Origin: Halorubrum tebenquichense DSM 14210
GTDB lineage: Archaea; Halobacteriota; Halobacteria; Halobacteriales; Haloferacaceae
DNA length: 64,000 bases
Direction of reading: 5' to 3'
Assembly: GCF_000337415.1 (NCBI RefSeq)
Contig: NZ_AOJD01000045.1
Coordinates: 1-64,000, forward strand
Part shown: positions 39,272 through 57,264 of the stretch, piece after piece
How positions within the stretch are numbered: position 1 is the stretch's first letter
How the letters are laid out: the number at the start of each line of letters is the position of its first letter
Made by a program: the position numbers and the translations under genes
The notes under the pieces: generated by a model
The model's database searches: none
Seen by the model: only the letters and a program-made list of their open reading frames with translations
What the model was told of the DNA's origin: nothing

Positions 39272-40627
39272 TCAGTCGTCCGCTTCCGGTCTGCTCCGCG
39301 CCGCGTCGTCGAACGCGGTCCCGTCCACGGCCGCGGCGACCGCTTCGTCGCGCCGCAGGTGACACGCCGCGTAGTGGCGGTCGTCGCCGAGCTCCGACCC
39401 CACCTCGTAGGCGGGGTTCGCGGTTGCGCAGACGCTCTGGTCGGCGAACCGTTCGACGAGAAGCTGTTCGGCGGCGTCCCACTCGTCGCGCTCGATGTGC
39501 CCGAACGCCTCGTCGAGCAGCGTGCCCGCGTCGCCGCCCGGCGTCGCATCGTCGAAGTACCGATCGCGGAGCGCGTCTGGGTCGGTCTCCTCGAACGCCC
39601 GGCGCTCGACCGCGCGCTGGAACTCCACGACGTTCCGCCACGCCTCGTCGGTCATGTCGTACTCGTCCGGCTGGATCACGCTGGGGCACCGCGTCCGGAA
39701 TCGGCAGCCGGAGGGCGGGTCGATCGGCGACGGCACGTCGCCGGACAGCAGCGCCTTGCGGCCGCCGCTCCGCGGGTCCGGAACCGGGATCGCGTCGAGC
39801 AGCGCCCGCGTGTACGGGTGTTTCGGGTTCTCGAACAGCTCCTCTTTGTCGGCCAGTTCGACGATCTCGCCGAGGTACATCACCGCGACGCGGTCCGAGA
39901 TGTGCCGGATGACGCTCAGGTCGTGCGCGATGAACAGGTACGTCAGGTCGAACTCGTCTTGGAGCTCCTCCATCGTGTTGAGCACCTGCGCCTGGATGGA
40001 GACGTCGAGCGCCGACACCGGCTCGTCGCAGACGATGAAGTCGGGGTTCACCGACAGCGCGCGGGCGAGGTTCACGCGCTGTCGCTGCCCGCCGGAGAAC
40101 GCGTGCGGGTACCGGTTGTAGTGTTGCGGGTCGAGCCCAACCTTCTCCAGTAGCTCCTTCGCGCGCGCCTCGCGACCCTCCTCGTCGAGCATGCCGTGCG
40201 CCTTCATCGGCTCCTCGACGATCGGTCCGACCTTCATCCGGGGGTCGAGCGAGGACTGCGGGTCCTGGAAGATCATCTGCATGTCCTTCCGCATCCGCCG
40301 CAGCGGCTCGCCGGACATCGACGCGAGGTCCTGCCCCTGGAAGTAGACGCTCCCGCTCGTCGGTTCGAGCAGCCGGAGGACGGTGCGCGCCAGCGTCGAC
40401 TTCCCGCAGCCGGACTCGCCGACCAGCCCCAGCGTCTCCCCCTGCTTGATGTCGAAGCTCACGCCGTCGACCGCGCGGACGTCCGAGGTCGACCGGCTGA
40501 CGTACGGGAACTCGTCGTCGAGCTCGACGCCGGCGAGGAGTCCGCTCTCGTTGTCGAAGTGCTTGCACAGGTCGCGGACCTGAAGGAGGGCCTCGGGGTC
40601 CGACTCGGGCGGCCCGACCTCGCTCAT
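39272..40627 (-). CDS. Peptide ABC transporter ATP-binding protein, DppF-like
   Basis: A 451-aa ABC ATPase. Walker [14 protein letters not shown], signature [16 protein letters not shown], Walker [15 protein letters not shown], then the H-loop FIAHDLSVI. The oligopeptide C-terminal extension ([11 protein letters not shown]) is present, but about 95 extra residues (about 340-440), including [20 protein letters not shown], separate its Cys-rich CRFRTRCP from a later CHLRRD. Such insertions occur in some haloarchaeal DppF proteins. It is the last gene of the five-gene operon and overlaps dppD by ATGA. With DppD it powers uptake of peptides or other solutes. Confidence 0.93.
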
Positions 40628-41745
40628 TCCGCCTCACCTCCGGTCTCGGTGAGGCCGGCGGAGAAGCCGCCCCCGGCCCGCGTGTCGATCGGCGGGCTCT
40701 CGTCGTAGCCCACGTCGAACGCGTCGTGTTTCACGCACGCGGCCGCGTGGCGCGGCTCGCCCTCCTCGCTCAGGTCCCGCGGCTCCGGATGGACCTCGCG
40801 GCACACCTCCCGGGCCTCGGGACACCGCGAGTGGAACCGACAGCCGGCGGGCGGGTCGATCGCCTCCGGCATCACCCCCTCGATCGGTCTGAGCTCGTCG
40901 ACCGTCCGGTCGGGGCGCGGCATCGAGTCGAGCAGCGCCGACGTGTACGGGTGTTTCGTGTCGTAGAACAGGTCGTCGACCTCCGCCTGCTCGATGATCT
41001 CGCCGAGGTACATCACGTTGACCCGGTCGCAGATCTCCGCGACGACGCTCATGTCGTGGGTGACCCAGATGAAGGACGTGTCGTACTTCTCTTGCAGCTC
41101 CGTCACCATCTCCAGGATCTCGCCCTCGACGGTCACGTCGAGCGCGGTCGTCGGCTCGTCGGCGATGATGAGGTCCGGCTGGCAGGCGAGCGCCATCGCG
41201 ATCAGCACGCGCTGGCGCATCCCGCCGGAGAACTGGTGCGGGTACTCGTCGTACCGCGACTCGGGCGCGGGGATCCCGACCTCCCGGAGCATGTCGATCG
41301 CCTCCTCCTTCGCCTCGTCGGGGTCGAGGTCGCGGTTGATCTCGATGAACTCCCGGAGCTGTCCCCCGACCGTGAAGACGGGGTTCAGAGACTCCATCGG
41401 GTCCTGGAAGATAATCGCGATCTCGCGGCCCCGGATACGCTTCCGCATCTCGTTTTCCGTGAGCATCTCGTCGCGCGGGCGTAACTCCCCGTCGTCGTCC
41501 GCTTCGAGTCCGAAGATCGTCTCGCCTTTGAACTCGATCTCGCCGCCGACGATCTCGCCGGGGCTGTCGACGAGCCGGAGGATACTGGAGGTCGCGACGG
41601 ACTTGCCGGCACCCGACTCGCCGACGAGTCCGACGATCTCTCCCTCGTGAACGTCGAAGGAGATGCCGTCGACGGCGCGGACCGTTCCGTCCTCGGTGAA
41701 GAACTGTGTCTTGAGATCGCGTACGCTGAGTAGTGGTTCGCTCAT
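40624..41745 (-). CDS. Peptide ABC transporter ATP-binding protein, DppD-like
   Basis: A 373-aa ABC ATPase. Walker [14 protein letters not shown], signature [15 protein letters not shown], Walker [15 protein letters not shown], and H-loop WVTHDMSVV. The C-terminal oligopeptide region [20 protein letters not shown] is intact. A small insertion ([20 protein letters not shown], about 85-105) lies between Walker A and the Q-loop, as usual in haloarchaea. One base separates it from the permease gene upstream, and it overlaps dppF downstream. Confidence 0.95.
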
Positions 41746-41746
41746 G

Positions 41747-42733
41747 TCAGTTGTTTATCCGCGGATCGAGGGCGTCCTGGAGGCCGTCGCCGAGAATGTT
41801 GAAGCCGATGACGGTGATCAGAATGGCGATGCCGGGGAAGATGCTGAACGTCGGCGCGGGGAGCATGTAGCCCCGCGAGGCCGACAGCATCTGTCCCCAC
41901 GACGGCGTCGGCGGCTGCGCGCCGAAGCCGAGGAACGAGAGCCCGGCCACGATGAGGATGCTCACGCCGACCTGAAGCGTCGCCTGGACCAACACCGGGG
42001 CGAAGCTGTTCGGGATGATGTGCCGGAAGATGATGTTGCGGTCCTTCACCCCGGCGGCCCGAGCGGCCTCGACGTAGTCCTCCTCGCGGATGGAGACGAC
42101 CCGCGACCGGATGAGGCGGTTGAACACGGGGATCGCCGTGATCCCGACGCCGATCATCGCGAACGTGAGGTCCCGCCCGAACGCGGTCATGAACGCGATG
42201 ACCAAGACGAGGAACGGGATCGCGTAGATGGTCTCCGTGACGCGCTGGAGCACGTCGTCGATCCAGCCGCCGTAGTAGCCGGAGACCGCGCCGATGACGG
42301 TGCCGCCGCCGAGCCCGATGGCGGTCGCGAGGAAGCCGACCGTCATCGCGATCCGCGTCCCGTAGATGGTCCGGGAGAGCAGGTCGCGGCCGCGGTGGTC
42401 GGTGCCGAGCGGGTGTTCGAGCACGCCCTGCCCGAACTGGTTCTCCATGCCGACCGGCGGGAGCAGCCGTCGGACGTTCTGCGGGTCGGTCTCGGGGTTG
42501 TACAACACCGCCTCCGCGATCGCGTAGTCGAGGACGTAGTAGTCGAACGCGGCGAACACCGCGACGAAGGTCATGAACCCGACGATGTAGGTCCCGATCC
42601 GCGCCGTCGTGTCCTGTCTGACCTGTTTTAACGTGTAGCGGAGGCCGACCCGGGCCTCCACCTCGTCCGGTCCGCCGCTCTCGTCGCCCCCGTCCGGCGT
42701 GTCGTCGTCCGAAGTTGCGCTGTTTATCGACAT
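41747..42733 (-). CDS. Peptide ABC transporter permease, DppC-like
   Basis: A 328-aa inner-membrane permease. An N-terminal cytoplasmic acidic stretch is followed by six hydrophobic segments. The EAA loop reads EDYVEAARAAGVKDRNIIFRHIIPN. The DppC-type LGTDHRGRDLLSRTIYGTRI segment is present. An extra N-terminal loop (residues about 55-115) is usual in archaeal DppC. The start overlaps the end of dppB, so the two are translated together. It forms the channel with DppB. Confidence 0.94.
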   Translation of the reverse strand: MSINSATSDDDTPDGGDESGGPDEVEARVGLRYTLKQVRQDTTARIGTYIVGFMTFVAVFAAFDYYVLDYAIAEAVLYNPETDPQNVRRLLPPVGMENQFGQGVLEHPLGTDHRGRDLLSRTIYGTRIAMTVGFLATAIGLGGGTVIGAVSGYYGGWIDDVLQRVTETIYAIPFLVLVIAFMTAFGRDLTFAMIGVGITAIPVFNRLIRSRVVSIREEDYVEAARAAGVKDRNIIFRHIIPNSFAPVLVQATLQVGVSILIVAGLSFLGFGAQPPTPSWGQMLSASRGYMLPAPTFSIFPGIAILITVIGFNILGDGLQDALDPRINN

Positions 42734-43728
42734 CAGTCTTCACCGTAGGTGACCCGCGGGTCGAGGTAGCTGTACGTGATGTCCGTGACGATCACGCCGA
42801 CCACGTACACGATACCGAACACCAGCGTCGTCCCCATGATCAGCTCGTAATCCTGGTTGTTTATCGCCGTGATGATCAGCCGTCCCATCCCCTGTATCTC
42901 GAAGACGGTCTCCGTGAGGACGGCACCGCCGAGCGCGGTCGACAGCCCGAGACCGATGATGGTGATAACCGGGAGCTGCGCGACTTGGAACGCGTGTTTG
43001 CGCACGATCGTCGACTCGGGAACCCCGTACGCCCGGGCGAGCTTGACGTACTCGCCCTGGAGGGAGTCGACCATCGACGAGCGCTCGATCCGGGTGATCT
43101 GCGCCATCTGGAGCGTCCCGAGCGCGATCATCGGCAAGAAGAGGTGGTGTGCCGACTGGCGGAGCACCTCGAACTGCGTCGCCGCCCCCCGCACGTCGGC
43201 CGGGTCGGTCCACGGGAGGACGAGTCCGCGTGCGGGGAACCACCCGAGGTAGAACGCGAAGACGATGATCAACACCAGTCCGATCCAGAACGACGGCGTG
43301 GAGACGCCGATCAGCGAGACGACCCGGGAGACGTGGTCCGCCGGCTCGTTCCGCCGCTTGGCCGAGATCACGCCGAGCGGGATCGCCGTGGCGACCGCGA
43401 ACGCGAACGCGGACAGCATGAGCAGCAGCGTCACCGGCAGCCGGAGCATGATCATCTCCAAGACCGGCCGGTCGTAGTAGATGCTGAACCCGAGGTTTCC
43501 GGTCGCGACGCCGGAGAGGTACGTGAAGTACCGGACGTGTATCGGCCGGTCGAGACCGTACCGGGCGCGGATCGCCTCGACCTGCTCCTGTGCCGGCGTC
43601 GGTCCCAGCATGATCTCCACCGGGTCGCCGGGGATCTGGTTTGCCAGGAAGAAGGTTATCGTCACGATACCTATCAGTACGGGTATCGCCTGTGCGAACC
43701 GCCGGAGTGTGTACCGAAGTAAACTCAC
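42733..43728 (-). CDS. Peptide ABC transporter permease, DppB-like
   Basis: A 331-aa permease with six membrane segments. It starts MSLLRYTLRRFAQAIPVLIG, a hallmark DppB N-terminus, followed by QIPGDPVEIMLGP. The EAA loop is LARAYGVPESTIVRKHAFQVA. It pairs with DppC to form the pore. It lies 220 bases after the binding-protein gene; that gap has no other gene and could carry a processing site that allows more binding protein than permease. Confidence 0.95.
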   Translation of the reverse strand: MSLLRYTLRRFAQAIPVLIGIVTITFFLANQIPGDPVEIMLGPTPAQEQVEAIRARYGLDRPIHVRYFTYLSGVATGNLGFSIYYDRPVLEMIMLRLPVTLLLMLSAFAFAVATAIPLGVISAKRRNEPADHVSRVVSLIGVSTPSFWIGLVLIIVFAFYLGWFPARGLVLPWTDPADVRGAATQFEVLRQSAHHLFLPMIALGTLQMAQITRIERSSMVDSLQGEYVKLARAYGVPESTIVRKHAFQVAQLPVITIIGLGLSTALGGAVLTETVFEIQGMGRLIITAINNQDYELIMGTTLVFGIVYVVGVIVTDITYSYLDPRVTYGED

Positions 43729-43949
43729 TGTCGTGGATCTCTCGTTGCTTCGATTCGGTCTTTGCTGTCGCTTATCCGTTTCGCTCCCGCCGACGCATCA
43801 ACCCTCGGCCGCTGACGGCCGCCGGACGCGTCGACGACCTCCCGGAGAGCTCGCGTCCGGCCGCGGACGGCCGCGCCCGCGCCGCGATCCGTCGGGGGTC
43901 GCGGCGCGGTCTCGTCGCGTTTCCGACGCGGTTCGTTCTCTCGACCGGC

Positions 43950-45563
43950 TTACCGAGTCACGGTCGAGCCGTCCACCTGGATCTCCGACGAGATCGGGTG
44001 CGAGCTGAAGCCTTCCACGGCGCTACGGACGCCGTAGGAGTTGTTCAGGTTGTACGCCGGGATGTGGACGCGGCCTTCGAGCAGCGTCGTCGTCGCCTCG
44101 ATGTAGAGCCGCCGCCGCTCCTCGCGGTCGGCGGACTCGCGGGCCTGCGTCAGCTTCTCGGAGGCCTCGTCGTAGCCGTGGAACGTCCCGTTGGTCACGC
44201 CGTCGACCTCCTGACTCAGCAGGTTGTACGCGAACGTGTCCGGGTCGGGGGCACCGGACCAGCCGAGCGTGTACATGTTGTACTCGTCGGCGCTGTTCGG
44301 GCCGTCGTCGCTCTGGTACGCCTCGGTGAACGTCCCCCAGTCGAGCCGCTGGACCTCGACGTTGTCGAAGCCGGCGTTCTGGAGCCCGTCGCCGATGGTG
44401 ACGCCGATCTGCTCGCGCATGTCGTCCGGCGGGACGATGATCCGCCAGTCGTAGTCCATCGAGACGCCGGCCTCGTCGAACAGCGCCTGCGCCTCCTCGA
44501 CGTCCTGGTCGTGCTGGATGTCCGCCCACTCGTCGACCGGGAAGTCCCACTCCTCGGAGATCGACGACGGGTAGGGGGCGTGCTGCCGCACGCCCGACGG
44601 TTCGACGAAGTTCTCGATCGCCTGGTCCATCGAGAAGCAGTAGTCGACCGCCTCGCGGACGAGGGGGTCGCTCGTCGGGCCGTTGGCGCAGTTGAACGCG
44701 AGGTAGAAGTAGCCGACGCCCGGCGACTCCGTGATGCTCGCGTTCTCGTTGCCCTCGACCGTCTCGTACAGCTGCGGCGGGATCGTCTCGATGACGTCGA
44801 CGTTGCCCGTCTCAAGCTCGGTGACGCGGGTCGTCTGCTCCTCGATGGGGTCGAACTCGATGCGGGCGATCTCCGGGAGGTTGTCGCCGTCCCAGTAGTC
44901 GTCCCAGCGCTCGACGGTCGCGTAGTCCTCCGGCTCCCACTCGACGAGCTGGAACGGGCCGGAACCGACCGGCTCCTGGTTGTACGTCTCGGTGTCCTCC
45001 TGCCGGACGGAGGCGTTGACGACGTTGCGCACCATGGCGATCGTGAACGCCCCGTAGGGGTACGAGAGGTCGAACTGCGCGGTGTGCTCGTCGATCGCCT
45101 CCGCGCTGTCGACCATGTCGACCTCCGAGGCGTTCTCGGTCTGCTCCTCGACCGGGGCCCGGATCGTGTGAATGACGTCCTCGGCGGTGACCGGGTCGCC
45201 GTTCTGGAACTCCGCGTCCTCGCGGATCGGCACGATGTACCGCGTCCCCTCGCGCTCGACCGTGGGCATCTCCGCGGCGATCTTCGGTTCGAGACCGACG
45301 CCGTCGCCGTACTCGTAGAGGCCGTCGAAGATCTGTCCCGCGATCTGCGCGGACGGCACGTCGTTGATGACGACCGGGTCCATGTCGAGCGGACCCTTCA
45401 CCTGCGAGAAGTACAGGGTCGGACCGCCGCTGCCGCCGCCGCCGTCGCCGCCGTCGCCGCCGTCGCCGCCGCCGGTACACCCGGCGAGCAGGAGGGAGGC
45501 ACCGGCTGCCCCGCCGGCGAGGACCTTCCGTCGCGAAATGCGTTGTGTGTGTTCTCGGCGCAT
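43950..45563 (-). CDS. Peptide-binding lipoprotein, SBP_bac_5 family
   Basis: A 537-aa extracellular binding protein and first gene of the transporter operon. It has a Tat-type lipobox: SRRKVLAGGAAGASLLLAGC, acylated Cys at residue 28, followed by a Gly/Asp spacer. SBP_bac_5 features: LEPKIAAEMPTVEREG, DPVTAEDVIHTIRAP, NQEPVGSGPFQLVEW, and LFDEAGVSMDYDWRI near the C-lobe boundary. The domain order is normal, in contrast to the permuted protein at 54488. It delivers peptides or similar compounds to DppBCDF. A TATA box 25-35 bases before the ATG supports a leaderless transcript. Confidence 0.94.
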   Translation of the reverse strand: MRREHTQRISRRKVLAGGAAGASLLLAGCTGGGDGGDGGDGGGGSGGPTLYFSQVKGPLDMDPVVINDVPSAQIAGQIFDGLYEYGDGVGLEPKIAAEMPTVEREGTRYIVPIREDAEFQNGDPVTAEDVIHTIRAPVEEQTENASEVDMVDSAEAIDEHTAQFDLSYPYGAFTIAMVRNVVNASVRQEDTETYNQEPVGSGPFQLVEWEPEDYATVERWDDYWDGDNLPEIARIEFDPIEEQTTRVTELETGNVDVIETIPPQLYETVEGNENASITESPGVGYFYLAFNCANGPTSDPLVREAVDYCFSMDQAIENFVEPSGVRQHAPYPSSISEEWDFPVDEWADIQHDQDVEEAQALFDEAGVSMDYDWRIIVPPDDMREQIGVTIGDGLQNAGFDNVEVQRLDWGTFTEAYQSDDGPNSADEYNMYTLGWSGAPDPDTFAYNLLSQEVDGVTNGTFHGYDEASEKLTQARESADREERRRLYIEATTTLLEGRVHIPAYNLNNSYGVRSAVEGFSSHPISSEIQVDGSTVTR

Positions 45564-45585
45564 ACAGCCGAACTCTTGTTTCTAT

Positions 45586-53206: not shown

Positions 53207-54397
53207 ATGAAACGGGTCTACGTCGTCGTCGCCCTCCTCGCAGTCGTCGGAGTCGCTCTCGCGCTCTCCGGGGTCTTCGCCGGGGCGGACGAGGAGCCGG
53301 CCGTCGGCGACGTCGCGGACGACCGCCTCATCGCCGTCGACGGCGACTACCGGCTCTGGCCGTACACGAGCCGGAGCCGGAGCGTCACGGGGCGGACGCT
53401 CGCGATCAACGTGGTGTTCCACGCGGACGCGGCGACGACCCGAGCCGCCATCGAGGGGCGCTCGGACGCGGACTGGGAGGAGACGGAGCCCGGCGAGGCG
53501 GCGACGCGGACGGAGTCGGAGGACGTCGAGGAGTTCGTCGCCCGCGACTGGCGGGACGCCCGCAGCTCGCTCCGCTACTCGTACGTCGAGGGACCGGACG
53601 GCGGCGCGTGGCTCACCGAGACGTTCGAACTCCACGACGGGGCGTACCTCGGGGTCCGCGACCACCTCCGCGCCTACGAGTCGCCCGACGGCAGCTACAC
53701 CGCGATACAGGCCCACGAGGAGTACTACGACTGGTTCCGGCTCCGCCACACCGTTCCCGACATCGACGCGCCCGCGCTGCGGCTCGAATCCGAGTTCGTC
53801 GGGTCGGACCGCGCGACCGACGTCCGCCGCGAGTACCGCGGCATCGACGGCGGGCGCAGCGACGGCTGGCTCTCCGTGATCGAACTGGCGGCCGCGGCGG
53901 CGCTCGCCGGGGCGCTGCTCGGGCGGCGGACCCGCGAGACGGCCGTCGACCTCGCTCGGCGGCTCCGGACCGACGTCGGCCGGCACGCGACGGCGGCGAC
54001 GCTGGGGCTGGCGCTCGGCGCGGTCCTCGTCGGCGTCCGCGTCGCCGGCGTGACGCTGGAGGCGGCGCTGCCGGGCGCGTCGCCGAAGGCCATCGCCGCG
54101 CCGCTGTACCTCGTCCTCGCGGTCGGGCTGCCCGCGCTGGTCGTCTGGCGCGCCCCGGGCACCGACCCGGAGGCCGCCGCGCTGGCCGTCGTCGTCGGTC
54201 TCGGCGGCGGCTTCCTCGCCGACTTCGCCGCGCTCGGGGTGGCGGTCCCGCCCGACCTCATCGTCCACCGCGTGGCGCTCCTCGCCGCGCTCGGCGTCGT
54301 CGCCATCGGCCGGGCGGCAGCCGACCGCCTCGTCGCCGCCGGGGGGGTGGCGGCGTGGGCCGTCGGGCTGGCGCTCCCCCTGCTGGACGTCATCTGA
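53207..54397 (+). CDS. Haloarchaeal membrane protein with a large extracellular domain
   Basis: A 396-aa protein. The first hydrophobic segment (residues about 4-26) is a signal anchor. Residues about 30-215 form an extracellular acidic domain with YRLWPYTSRSRSVTGRTLAI, VVFHADAATTRAAIEG and YSYVEGPDGGAWLTETFELH. The C-terminal half holds about six membrane helices. I do not recognise the family; its look suggests haloarchaeal proteins next to secretion or surface genes. It ends 90 bases before the lipoprotein gene in the same direction. Confidence 0.72.
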   Translation: MKRVYVVVALLAVVGVALALSGVFAGADEEPAVGDVADDRLIAVDGDYRLWPYTSRSRSVTGRTLAINVVFHADAATTRAAIEGRSDADWEETEPGEAATRTESEDVEEFVARDWRDARSSLRYSYVEGPDGGAWLTETFELHDGAYLGVRDHLRAYESPDGSYTAIQAHEEYYDWFRLRHTVPDIDAPALRLESEFVGSDRATDVRREYRGIDGGRSDGWLSVIELAAAAALAGALLGRRTRETAVDLARRLRTDVGRHATAATLGLALGAVLVGVRVAGVTLEAALPGASPKAIAAPLYLVLAVGLPALVVWRAPGTDPEAAALAVVVGLGGGFLADFAALGVAVPPDLIVHRVALLAALGVVAIGRAAADRLVAAGGVAAWAVGLALPLLDVI

Positions 54398-54487: not shown

Positions 54488-56404
54488 ATGACCCGACCGA
54501 TCAGTCGACGCGCGGCGCTCGCCGGACTCGGCCTTGCGGCCGCCAGCGCCGGCTGTCTCGGTCGCACGGAGAACATCGCGGGACGCAATCCTCCCTCGCA
54601 GTTGACCCTCGAGATCAACACCACGCCGGCGGACGACGACCCCAACGGGATCCGCATCGCGAGGCAGCTCGAGGAGCACCTGACCGCGGTCGGCGTCGAC
54701 GTCAGACTCAACACCGTCGGCCAGACGGACCTCTGGCGGAAGGTGCTGATCAACCAGAACTTCGACCTCTACGTCGGGCAGTTCGTCGAGACGGAGCCGT
54801 TCGACGCGGACGCGCTGTACGGGCTGACGCACTCGAAGTTCGTCGCGGAGTCCGGCTGGCAGAACCCGTACGGGCTCACGGAGATCGCGGTCGACGACGC
54901 CCTGGAGCGACAGCGCCGCGTCTCCGGCGACGAGCGGACCGACGCGATCGGGTCGCTTCAGGAGACGCTGTGCGAGCTCCAGCCCTTCTCGGTCGTCGCC
55001 TTCCCCGACGCGCTCACCGCCGTCCGGGAGCACCGGTTCGAGGGGTGGACGGAGGACCGCCAGCCGCTCTCGGCCACCGGCCTCCTCGAACTCGACGCCG
55101 TCGCCGACGGCTCGGACGACGGCGGCTCCGGGACCGACGGCTCCGGGACCAACGACACCGGCACCGGCGGCTCGACGGACGGCAACGCGTCGACCGAGGA
55201 CGCGGCCGGCGGGGACGACGGCACCCTCCGGCTCGTGACGACCGACGACCGAATCACCGAGAACTGGAACCCGATCGCGGCTGAGTACCGCAAGTACGGC
55301 ACCTTCACCGGCCTGTTGTACGACCCGCTCGTCCGCGCGGACGGCGACGCCGTCGTCCCGTGGCTGGCGGCCGACTGGGAGCGCGTCGACGACGACGTCC
55401 TTGAGGTGTCGCTCCGCGACGCGCGGTGGCACGACGGCGAGCCGGTGACGGCGACCGACGTCGCGTTCACCTACCGGTTCCTCCGCGACACGTCGCTGGG
55501 GAGCGTCGAGACGTCCGTCCCGACCCCGCGGTTCCGCGGACGGAGCTCCCTCGTCGACGACGAGCGCGTCCTCGACGAGTCGACGGTCCGGCTCACCGTG
55601 CCCGACGTCAACGAGACGGTCGCCGCCCGGGCGCTTCAGGTGCCGATCCTCCCGAAACACGTCTGGTCGGAGCGGACCGGCGCGGCGACGATAGCCGGCT
55701 TCGAACTCGACTTCGAGACGACGGAGGCGATCGTCTCGAACAACCCCGACCCCGTCGGTAGCGGGCCGCTGCGCTTCGTCGAGGCGGAGGCCGGGGAGTC
55801 GGTCGTCTTCGAACGCAACCCCGACCACTTCCTCGTCCGCCCGGCGGCGGACGGCGAGTCGGCGGACTCGGATGAGACGACGGACCCGCGGGCGGGGGTC
55901 CCGTCCCGCTACCGGGGCAAACCCGCCTTCGACCGGCTCCGCATCGAGGTGCTGCCGTCGGACATCTCGGCCGTGGAGTCGGTCTCCGACGGGCTCGCGG
56001 ACGCGACCGTCTCCAACCTCGGACCCGCGTCGGTCCCCCTGATCGGCCGCTCGGCAGACGCCCGCCTCGTGAGCGGTCGGTCGGCGGCGTTCTACCACGT
56101 CGGCTACAACGTGCGGCGGAGCCCGCTGTCGAACCCCCGGTTCCGGTCGGTCGTCGCGCGCCTGATAGACAAGTCCGCGCTCGTCGACGACGCCTTCGAC
56201 GGGTACGCGCGGGCGGCGGCGTCCCCGCTCGCGGCGTCGCCGAACGCGGTCCCGGACTCGGTGGCGTGGGACGGCGACACCGACCCGACCCACCCGTTCT
56301 TCGCCGACGAGGGGTCGTTGGACGTCGAGGCCGCCAGAGCGGCGCTCCGCGACATCGGGTACCGCTTCGACGACGAGGGACGACTGCTCTCGCGGGGGCA
56401 ATGA
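54488..56404 (+). CDS. SBP_bac_5-type lipoprotein with circularly permuted domain order
   Basis: A 638-aa Tat lipoprotein (SRRAALAGLGLAAASAGC, Cys23). Residues about 38-205 look like the C-lobe end of SBP_bac_5: QLTLEINTTPADDDPNGIRI, IARQLEEHLTAVGVDVRL, NFDLYVGQFV and ALERQRRVSGDERTDAIG. A Gly/Ser/Asp linker (206-244) follows. Residues 245-638 look like the usual beginning: NWNPIAAEYRKYGTFTGLLYDPL, WHDGEPVTATDVAFTYRFL, NPDPVGSGPLRFV. It ends ARAALRDIGYRFDDEGRLLS, where the C-lobe segment would normally go on. So the two pieces are swapped. It overlaps the PAP2 gene by ATGA. No permease or ATPase gene is adjacent; function unknown. Confidence 0.82.
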   Translation: MTRPISRRAALAGLGLAAASAGCLGRTENIAGRNPPSQLTLEINTTPADDDPNGIRIARQLEEHLTAVGVDVRLNTVGQTDLWRKVLINQNFDLYVGQFVETEPFDADALYGLTHSKFVAESGWQNPYGLTEIAVDDALERQRRVSGDERTDAIGSLQETLCELQPFSVVAFPDALTAVREHRFEGWTEDRQPLSATGLLELDAVADGSDDGGSGTDGSGTNDTGTGGSTDGNASTEDAAGGDDGTLRLVTTDDRITENWNPIAAEYRKYGTFTGLLYDPLVRADGDAVVPWLAADWERVDDDVLEVSLRDARWHDGEPVTATDVAFTYRFLRDTSLGSVETSVPTPRFRGRSSLVDDERVLDESTVRLTVPDVNETVAARALQVPILPKHVWSERTGAATIAGFELDFETTEAIVSNNPDPVGSGPLRFVEAEAGESVVFERNPDHFLVRPAADGESADSDETTDPRAGVPSRYRGKPAFDRLRIEVLPSDISAVESVSDGLADATVSNLGPASVPLIGRSADARLVSGRSAAFYHVGYNVRRSPLSNPRFRSVVARLIDKSALVDDAFDGYARAAASPLAASPNAVPDSVAWDGDTDPTHPFFADEGSLDVEAARAALRDIGYRFDDEGRLLSRGQ

Positions 56405-57264
56405 CGCCGTTCCTGTCGGTCCTCACGTCGGTCGTCGCGTGGGTCGCGGCGATGCTGACGGTCGCGAGCCTCGCGGTCGTCGGCCCGGCCCGACTCCGCG
56501 CGGCGTGGGGTGGGGTCCGCGCCCGGCTGTGGGACTCGCGTCGTGCGATCGCGGTCCTCTGTACCGTGTTGCTCGCCAGCGCGGTCGGAAGGTCGTGGCT
56601 GCTGGACGTCTCCAGGCTGTTCGGCGTTCAGGCGACGGCGCTCATCTACAAGCTGGAGGGCGGGTTCGTCGCGTGGGTTCAGGCGACGTTCGCCGGCCCC
56701 GCGCTGACCGCGTACTTCTCGTGGGTGTACGTGTACGGCTACGCGTTCCTCCTCGCGTTCCCGGTGGTCGCGTACCTCGCGCTCCCCCGGACGGTGACCC
56801 TGAGGCGACTGTTCGTCGCGTACGCGCTCAACTACGGGATCGGGCTGGCGCTGTACACGCTGATATTCGCCCACGGCCCGCGAAACGTGATGCCGGAAAT
56901 GGTGACGCCGCTGCTGTTCGCCAACCAGCCCGACGTGATGGCGCTGACGAGCGAGGTGAACGTGAACTCGAACGTGTTCCCGTCGCTTCACACCTCGCTG
57001 GCCGTCTCCGTGGGGACGTTCGCGGTCCTGACCCGCGAGGAGTATCCGCGGTGGACGCCCGTCGGGGTCACGCTCTCGCTGTCGGTCGTCGTCGCGACGA
57101 TGTACCTCGGCATCCACTGGCTCACCGACGTGATCGCCGGCTTCGCGCTCGCGTTCGGCTCCGTCTACCTCGCGCACCGGTTCGTGGAGCCCCGCGGCGA
57201 GGGCCTCTCACCGGGCGACGACGCGGGCGAACGTCCCGGCTCCGGAACCGGCGCGGACGACTGA
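56401..57264 (+). CDS. PAP2-superfamily membrane phosphatase-like protein
   Basis: A 287-aa membrane protein with about six helices. PAP2 motifs 2 and 3 are visible as NVFPSLHTSLAVSVG and YLGIHWLTDVIAGFALAF, with the two catalytic His. Motif 1 (KxxxxxxRP) is not clear, and the region around GPRNVMPEMVTP takes its place. This pattern resembles the inositolphosphotransferase/AUR1-type subgroup. It may move phospho-head groups or dephosphorylate lipids. Translational coupling with the permuted binding-protein gene suggests joint function at the membrane. Confidence 0.82.
   Translation: MTPFLSVLTSVVAWVAAMLTVASLAVVGPARLRAAWGGVRARLWDSRRAIAVLCTVLLASAVGRSWLLDVSRLFGVQATALIYKLEGGFVAWVQATFAGPALTAYFSWVYVYGYAFLLAFPVVAYLALPRTVTLRRLFVAYALNYGIGLALYTLIFAHGPRNVMPEMVTPLLFANQPDVMALTSEVNVNSNVFPSLHTSLAVSVGTFAVLTREEYPRWTPVGVTLSLSVVVATMYLGIHWLTDVIAGFALAFGSVYLAHRFVEPRGEGLSPGDDAGERPGSGTGADD

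Follow-up and report, generated by a model that had tools for sequence, protein, structure and literature searches.

Gene content of the locus

The window considered here is a stretch of 64,000 nucleotides from Halorubrum tebenquichense DSM 14210 (contig NZ_AOJD01000045.1, positions 1 to 64,000). Two of its genes considered here encode solute-binding proteins (SBPs) of the SBP_bac_5 family, one of normal order, which served as the control, and one whose segments are arranged differently. The relevant features are as follows.

43950-45563, minus strand: control SBP_bac_5 paralogue of normal order, with DppBCDF at 39272-43728
53207-54397, plus strand: 396-aa membrane protein of an unnamed family, upstream of the SBP and its partner in part of the clade
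54488-56404, plus strand: SBP_bac_5 protein of 638 aa, a predicted lipoprotein and almost certainly a circular permutant (open reading frame; Pfam PF00496 in swapped order, E = 7.3e-46; 245-genome profile search)
54488-54556, plus strand: predicted Tat signal and lipobox (RR...SAGC), residues 1-23
54599-55102, plus strand: moved C-lobe segment, residues 38-205 (positions 389-536 of the 545-position normal-family profile; match to 6i3g)
55103-55219, plus strand: low-complexity G/S/D/T linker, residues 206-244, from the old C-terminus to the old N-terminus (sequence; pLDDT)
55220-56401, plus strand: core, formerly the N-terminal part and running up to the cut site, residues 245-638 (normal-profile positions 45-387; rotated alignment)
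56401-57264, plus strand: PAP2_3 membrane phosphatase gene (PF14378, E = 2.3e-16; PF01569, E = 3.4e-11), located 3' of the SBP gene in 60 of 70 relatives

The 638-aa protein thus reads signal, moved C-lobe segment, linker, core. Its Tat motif and lipobox (SRRAALAGLGLAAASAGC) include an RR pair and a lipobox Cys that are invariant among 22 aligned relatives, a putative signature of export and anchoring. Linker residues 208-242 have pLDDT below 50 in the AlphaFold2 model, and in relatives the linker shrinks to 1-10 residues.

Sequence evidence for a swapped segment order

Membership in the family is clear, as the window SBP scores 157.4 bits against PF00496 (gathering cut-off 32.4), with residues 289-629 aligned to profile positions 2-282. 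The N-terminal segment taken alone matches the same profile further on, its residues 5-79 (approximately 42-116 of the protein) covering positions 289-363 (E = 1.9e-4). Since the earlier part of the profile is found at the back of the chain and the later part at the front, the order is swapped, with abutting ends; the end segment comes first rather than last, as it does in the canonical linear order. An earlier note on this DNA, made by reading the sequence, had proposed both that residues 38-205 are the end segment of the family placed first and that the chain stops where this segment would continue, and the profile coordinates bear out both proposals. A check of residues 38-205 for a different domain returned the same family instead (PF00496; 6i3g).

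A native-order profile built from 22 relatives of the window SBP matched C. difficile AppA (6i3g) in two swapped stretches, profile positions 237-550 aligning with chain residues 29-311 and positions 67-186 with residues 351-467. When the profile was rebuilt in rotated form (residues 245-638 joined to 38-205), one unbroken stretch was obtained for AppA (17-521 to 36-498), CtaP (15-533 to 30-488), DppA (33-521 to 32-487), Tm1223 (14-530 to 20-511), and NikZ (17-529 to 19-477), so that the alignment of the rejoined pieces to normal members suggested in the earlier note is indeed continuous. In the AppA alignment the junction lies at about chain residue 359/360, in a turn (DKDGKK) that precedes a strand. 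The permuted order is absent from the solved chains listed among the profile matches. In the control paralogue of the window, the equivalent of the moved segment (386-511) follows the core (67-381).

Predicted structure

The AlphaFold2 model computed from the native-order alignment has pLDDT 79.9 and pTM 0.80, with poor regions restricted to the signal, the linker, and a few loops; the model of the control, obtained at a similar alignment depth, has pLDDT 82.6 and pTM 0.80. Sequential Foldseek searches matched the permuted model only partially (best E 8.5e-15, TMt 0.49, 424 columns) and the control model over its whole length (best E 4e-38, TMt 0.86, 488 columns). A comparison of helix/strand strings between the permuted and control models scored 260 in the native order and 445 after rotation, the median of all rotations being 310. 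The score of 445 was obtained with rotations of 144-174 residues, a length of 174 residues being assumed for the moved piece; its ten predicted elements correspond, in order and with nearly equal lengths, to the ten main elements at the end of the control model. Hence, once rotation is allowed, the predicted secondary-structure elements of the window SBP are those of cluster C, and the structure prediction that the earlier note had called for yields the normal element order, rotated. No match was found in a viral structure library.

Taken together, these observations make it almost certain that the window SBP arose by natural circular permutation of a cluster-C (SBP_bac_5) binding protein. Its chain begins in the loop that, in normal members, connects the last helix of the core with the first strand of the end segment; the linker fuses the old termini, and the predicted signal peptide and lipid anchor are placed on the new start. 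Such a protein would fold into the normal two-lobe clamp. Because the cut lies in the part of cluster-C proteins that is assigned, as in OppA, to domain III, the tether would now be on the C-lobe instead of the N-lobe.

Distribution of permuted relatives

Mapping covered approximately 75 distinct relatives with the permuted order, which belong to Halobacteria, Archaeoglobi, and Alphaproteobacteria; E-values and trees are based on species-representative genomes. The rearrangement is shared by close relatives within the genus (97-60% identity), is found in many further haloarchaeal families of the order, and recurs at 20-30% identity among a wide range of paralogues. An artefact of assembly or reading frame was rejected, as the same order recurs in full-length open frames of many genomes, from 97% down to about 25% identity.

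Among Alphaproteobacteria, permuted proteins were read and mapped in Ketogulonicigenium vulgare (WP_013385786.1), Roseomonas marmotae, and Maritalea myrionectae; proteins from Nitratireductor, Microvirga, and Neorhizobium gave a one-piece match over 93% and lie outside the set mapped residue by residue. The RefSeq name of the alphaproteobacterial relatives is only "ABC transporter substrate-binding protein", and many annotations of this kind are misread by sequential domain tools. Four further alphaproteobacterial proteins, matched by an Archaeoglobi query along with relatives from Archaeoglobi themselves, turned out to have the normal order and were rejected as evidence for permutation. The normal-order controls behaved as expected (L108, L109, the window paralogue, L112, and L114-L116), including Cytobacillus L173, which aligned in a single stretch (33-520 to 63-531).

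Cut site and repeated origin

Cut positions were mapped on a profile of 22 normal proteins with 545 positions. In every mapped relative the cut falls no more than about 30 residues from one loop, and the exact positions are of three kinds: in the main clade the end lies near 387 and the restart at 387-390, in the Archaeoglobi proteins the end is at 375-381 and the restart at 386-388, and for L082 and L083 the corresponding positions are 362-367 and 371. The sister of the latter two, with support 100/100, is the haloarchaeal protein L124, which has the normal order; BLASTP of L124 against L082 gives two swapped blocks, 98-405 to 270-576 at 47% identity and 412-593 to 77-258 at 34%.

Forcing all permuted proteins into one clade costs 181.6 log units and is rejected (AU p = 7e-48), as is joining the main clade with Archaeoglobi (37.7 log units, p = 6e-4). 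The smallest number of switches on the tree, which is unrooted, built on domain-trimmed concatenated blocks, and contains some long branches, is three. We conclude that this loop was the site of at least three independent permutations, presumably in the direction from normal to permuted. In the Archaeoglobi protein L091 only about one spacer residue separates the old C-terminus from the old N-terminus, and several others have 6-13; the old ends are therefore near one another, which the fold requires. The initial 50 residues of some permuted proteins match the region of signal and spacer in normal ones, which fits a route by tandem duplication and subsequent loss of the first core together with the second signal and tail. 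One Archaeoglobi permuted SBP (L092:7733-9496, minus strand) carries a PGF-CTERM-like tail (KTPGFGVIAVIAGVMAATYLLRRRR) and hence likely has its anchor at the new C-terminus.

Two alternative histories have to be considered. The first, a truncated SBP joined to an unrelated domain at its N-terminus, would involve no permutation and accords with the fact that only the core aligns well in native-order Foldseek and HMMER searches. This explanation is nevertheless exceedingly improbable, as the N-terminal segment matches the missing end of the profile, its elements match in order, and rotation of the segments restores a continuous alignment to solved structures. A single ancient permutation with reversions to the normal order in L124 and others is formally possible on an unrooted tree; we regard it as improbable given the three kinds of cut positions, the rejection of both constrained topologies, and the normal order of the solved family at large.

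Importer operons of permuted relatives

Outside the group associated with PAP2 genes, most permuted SBPs of the main clade are directly adjoined by DppB, DppC, DppD, and DppF genes, usually lying downstream, and several of these operons also contain genes for M28, M20, or TldD-type peptidases, oxoprolinase/hydantoinase, creatininase, or gamma-glutamylcyclotransferase. Judging from the DppBCDF neighbourhood and the operon content, the permuted fold is very probably competent in the import of peptides or related amides. In L117, L170, and L172, the permuted importer operons are flanked by M28/M20 peptidase or TldD-related genes, those of the two bacteria also by oxoprolinase/hydantoinase genes, hinting at peptide or pyroglutamyl/hydantoin-type substrates. 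In the DppA system of E. coli, the scoop loop of DppB engages the ligand-contacting residues R383 and D436 (PMC12136057).

Association with PAP2_3 phosphatases

The window SBP itself is neighboured not by DppBC/DF but by the PAP2_3 enzyme and the unnamed membrane protein. The SBP stop and the PAP2_3 gene overlap by four bases (ATGA, 56401-56404), and the downstream product scores 60.6 bits against a Pfam cut-off of 27. In a profile search at E <= 1e-100, the window clade was found in 142 of 245 genomes and 55 of the 78 genera of the order. The PAP2-associated SBPs form one clade (support 100/100). Among 70 distinct clade copies with enough sequence, the PAP2_3 gene is next on the same strand in 60; six of the other ten are the second SBP of an SBP-PAP2-SBP triple, and four have no PAP2 neighbour. 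The PAP2 motifs are conserved in nearly all partners (GPRN, 62/64; FPSLH, 64/64; IHWxxD, 63/64). Neither a permease nor an ATPase gene was found beside window-clade copies across more than a dozen haloarchaeal families. Scans for promoters and terminators, with models of bacterial type only, returned nothing.

Several variants of this arrangement were observed. In the triples (L025, L026, L105, and L106), two diverged permuted SBPs surround one phosphatase gene, and L105 has two PAP2 genes. A dodecin-like gene of 66 aa lies close 3' of the SBP or of the SBP-PAP2 pair in L027, L028, L029, L031, and L032, which represent several families.

Comparison with known systems

The window SBP is homologous to the cluster-C proteins (DppA, OppA, AppA, NikZ) over both core and end segment; like them it is predicted to be secreted and to have a two-lobe fold, and many of its permuted relatives are accompanied by DppBCDF. 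It differs from them in being rotated at a C-lobe loop, and its clade lacks an adjacent permease or ATPase. A natural permutation has been described for another tethered SBP, TpMglB-2 (Tp0684) of Treponema pallidum, a cluster B protein ("Type Ic / Cluster Bc") for which anchoring was proposed as a reason (PMC4990184). TpMglB-2, however, belongs to a sugar-binding family and has N-lobe strands moved to the C-terminus, whereas Foldseek places the window SBP with cluster C and its C-lobe segment has moved to the front; the two events are unrelated. The downstream gene resembles PAP2_3 (PF14378) lipid phosphatases in passing the Pfam cut-off and in its catalytic motifs. To our knowledge, PAP2 enzymes have not been described together with a dedicated family-5 binding protein.

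The SBP_bac_5 family and circular permutation as a type of rearrangement are both known. A permuted family-5 SBP was not found in the openly licensed PMC papers searched, in agreement with the earlier note, which knew of no described natural permutation of this family. New are the permutation in family 5, its repeated origin, its presence in two domains of life, and the unexpected phosphatase partner. Family 5 would be the second binding-protein superfamily with a natural permutation, and here the event happened three or more times in nearly the same loop. Normal and permuted forms, still 47% identical over the core, offer a natural experiment on what drives a change of topology, and tethering through the other lobe is the likely candidate. 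The PAP2 link points to an uncharacterised membrane system present in most sampled genera of this haloarchaeal order.

Possible role of the window-clade proteins

As a whole, the data are best explained, with good confidence, by a circular permutant that serves transport in most relatives and has a PAP2-partner role in the window clade. Taken separately, the proposal that the window-clade SBP is the extracellular ligand-binding partner of the PAP2_3 enzyme is tentative, though it is the likeliest role. The protein would have left the transporter and, co-transcribed with PAP2_3, would capture or present a ligand linked to a phosphatase/phosphotransferase reaction at the outer face of the membrane; alternatively, within the same role, it would report ligand concentration. 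Orphan SBPs are common, and the main rival view is that the window protein is one of them and feeds a Dpp-type translocator encoded elsewhere, with the PAP2 gene linked only through dephosphorylation of the same substrate or through shared regulation. Complete importer operons do contain permuted relatives and Dpp systems are present in the genome (e.g., at 39272-45581 of the window), but the lack of a permease or ATPase beside the clade copies and the tight coupling of overlapping SBP and PAP2 genes argue against this explanation, which we regard as slightly less likely than the partner role. The adjacency of the two genes could also reflect shared regulation only. Returning to the partner role, its boldest version combines two claims, namely, that permutation was repeatedly selected for the shift of the anchor from the N-lobe to the C-lobe and that one haloarchaeal lineage quit ABC transport altogether and now serves a membrane PAP2 lipid phosphatase/phosphotransferase as its ligand-binding subunit. 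This combination is speculative and on balance unlikely; if true, it would mean an SBP-PAP2 complex of a kind not described before.

The upstream membrane protein

The protein encoded at 53207-54397 has no Pfam or NCBIfam match, even at E-value thresholds of 5 and 1, and an assignment to LssY_C, suggested by a by-eye likeness, was rejected on these grounds. Its orthologues are located 5' of the SBP gene within the genus, in L022, and in Haloferax gibbonsii, where a three-gene unit (membrane protein, SBP, PAP2) is annotated on pHG2. The sequence suggests an N-terminal domain outside the membrane (LWPYTSRSRS...LAINVVFHAD) followed by several C-terminal helices.
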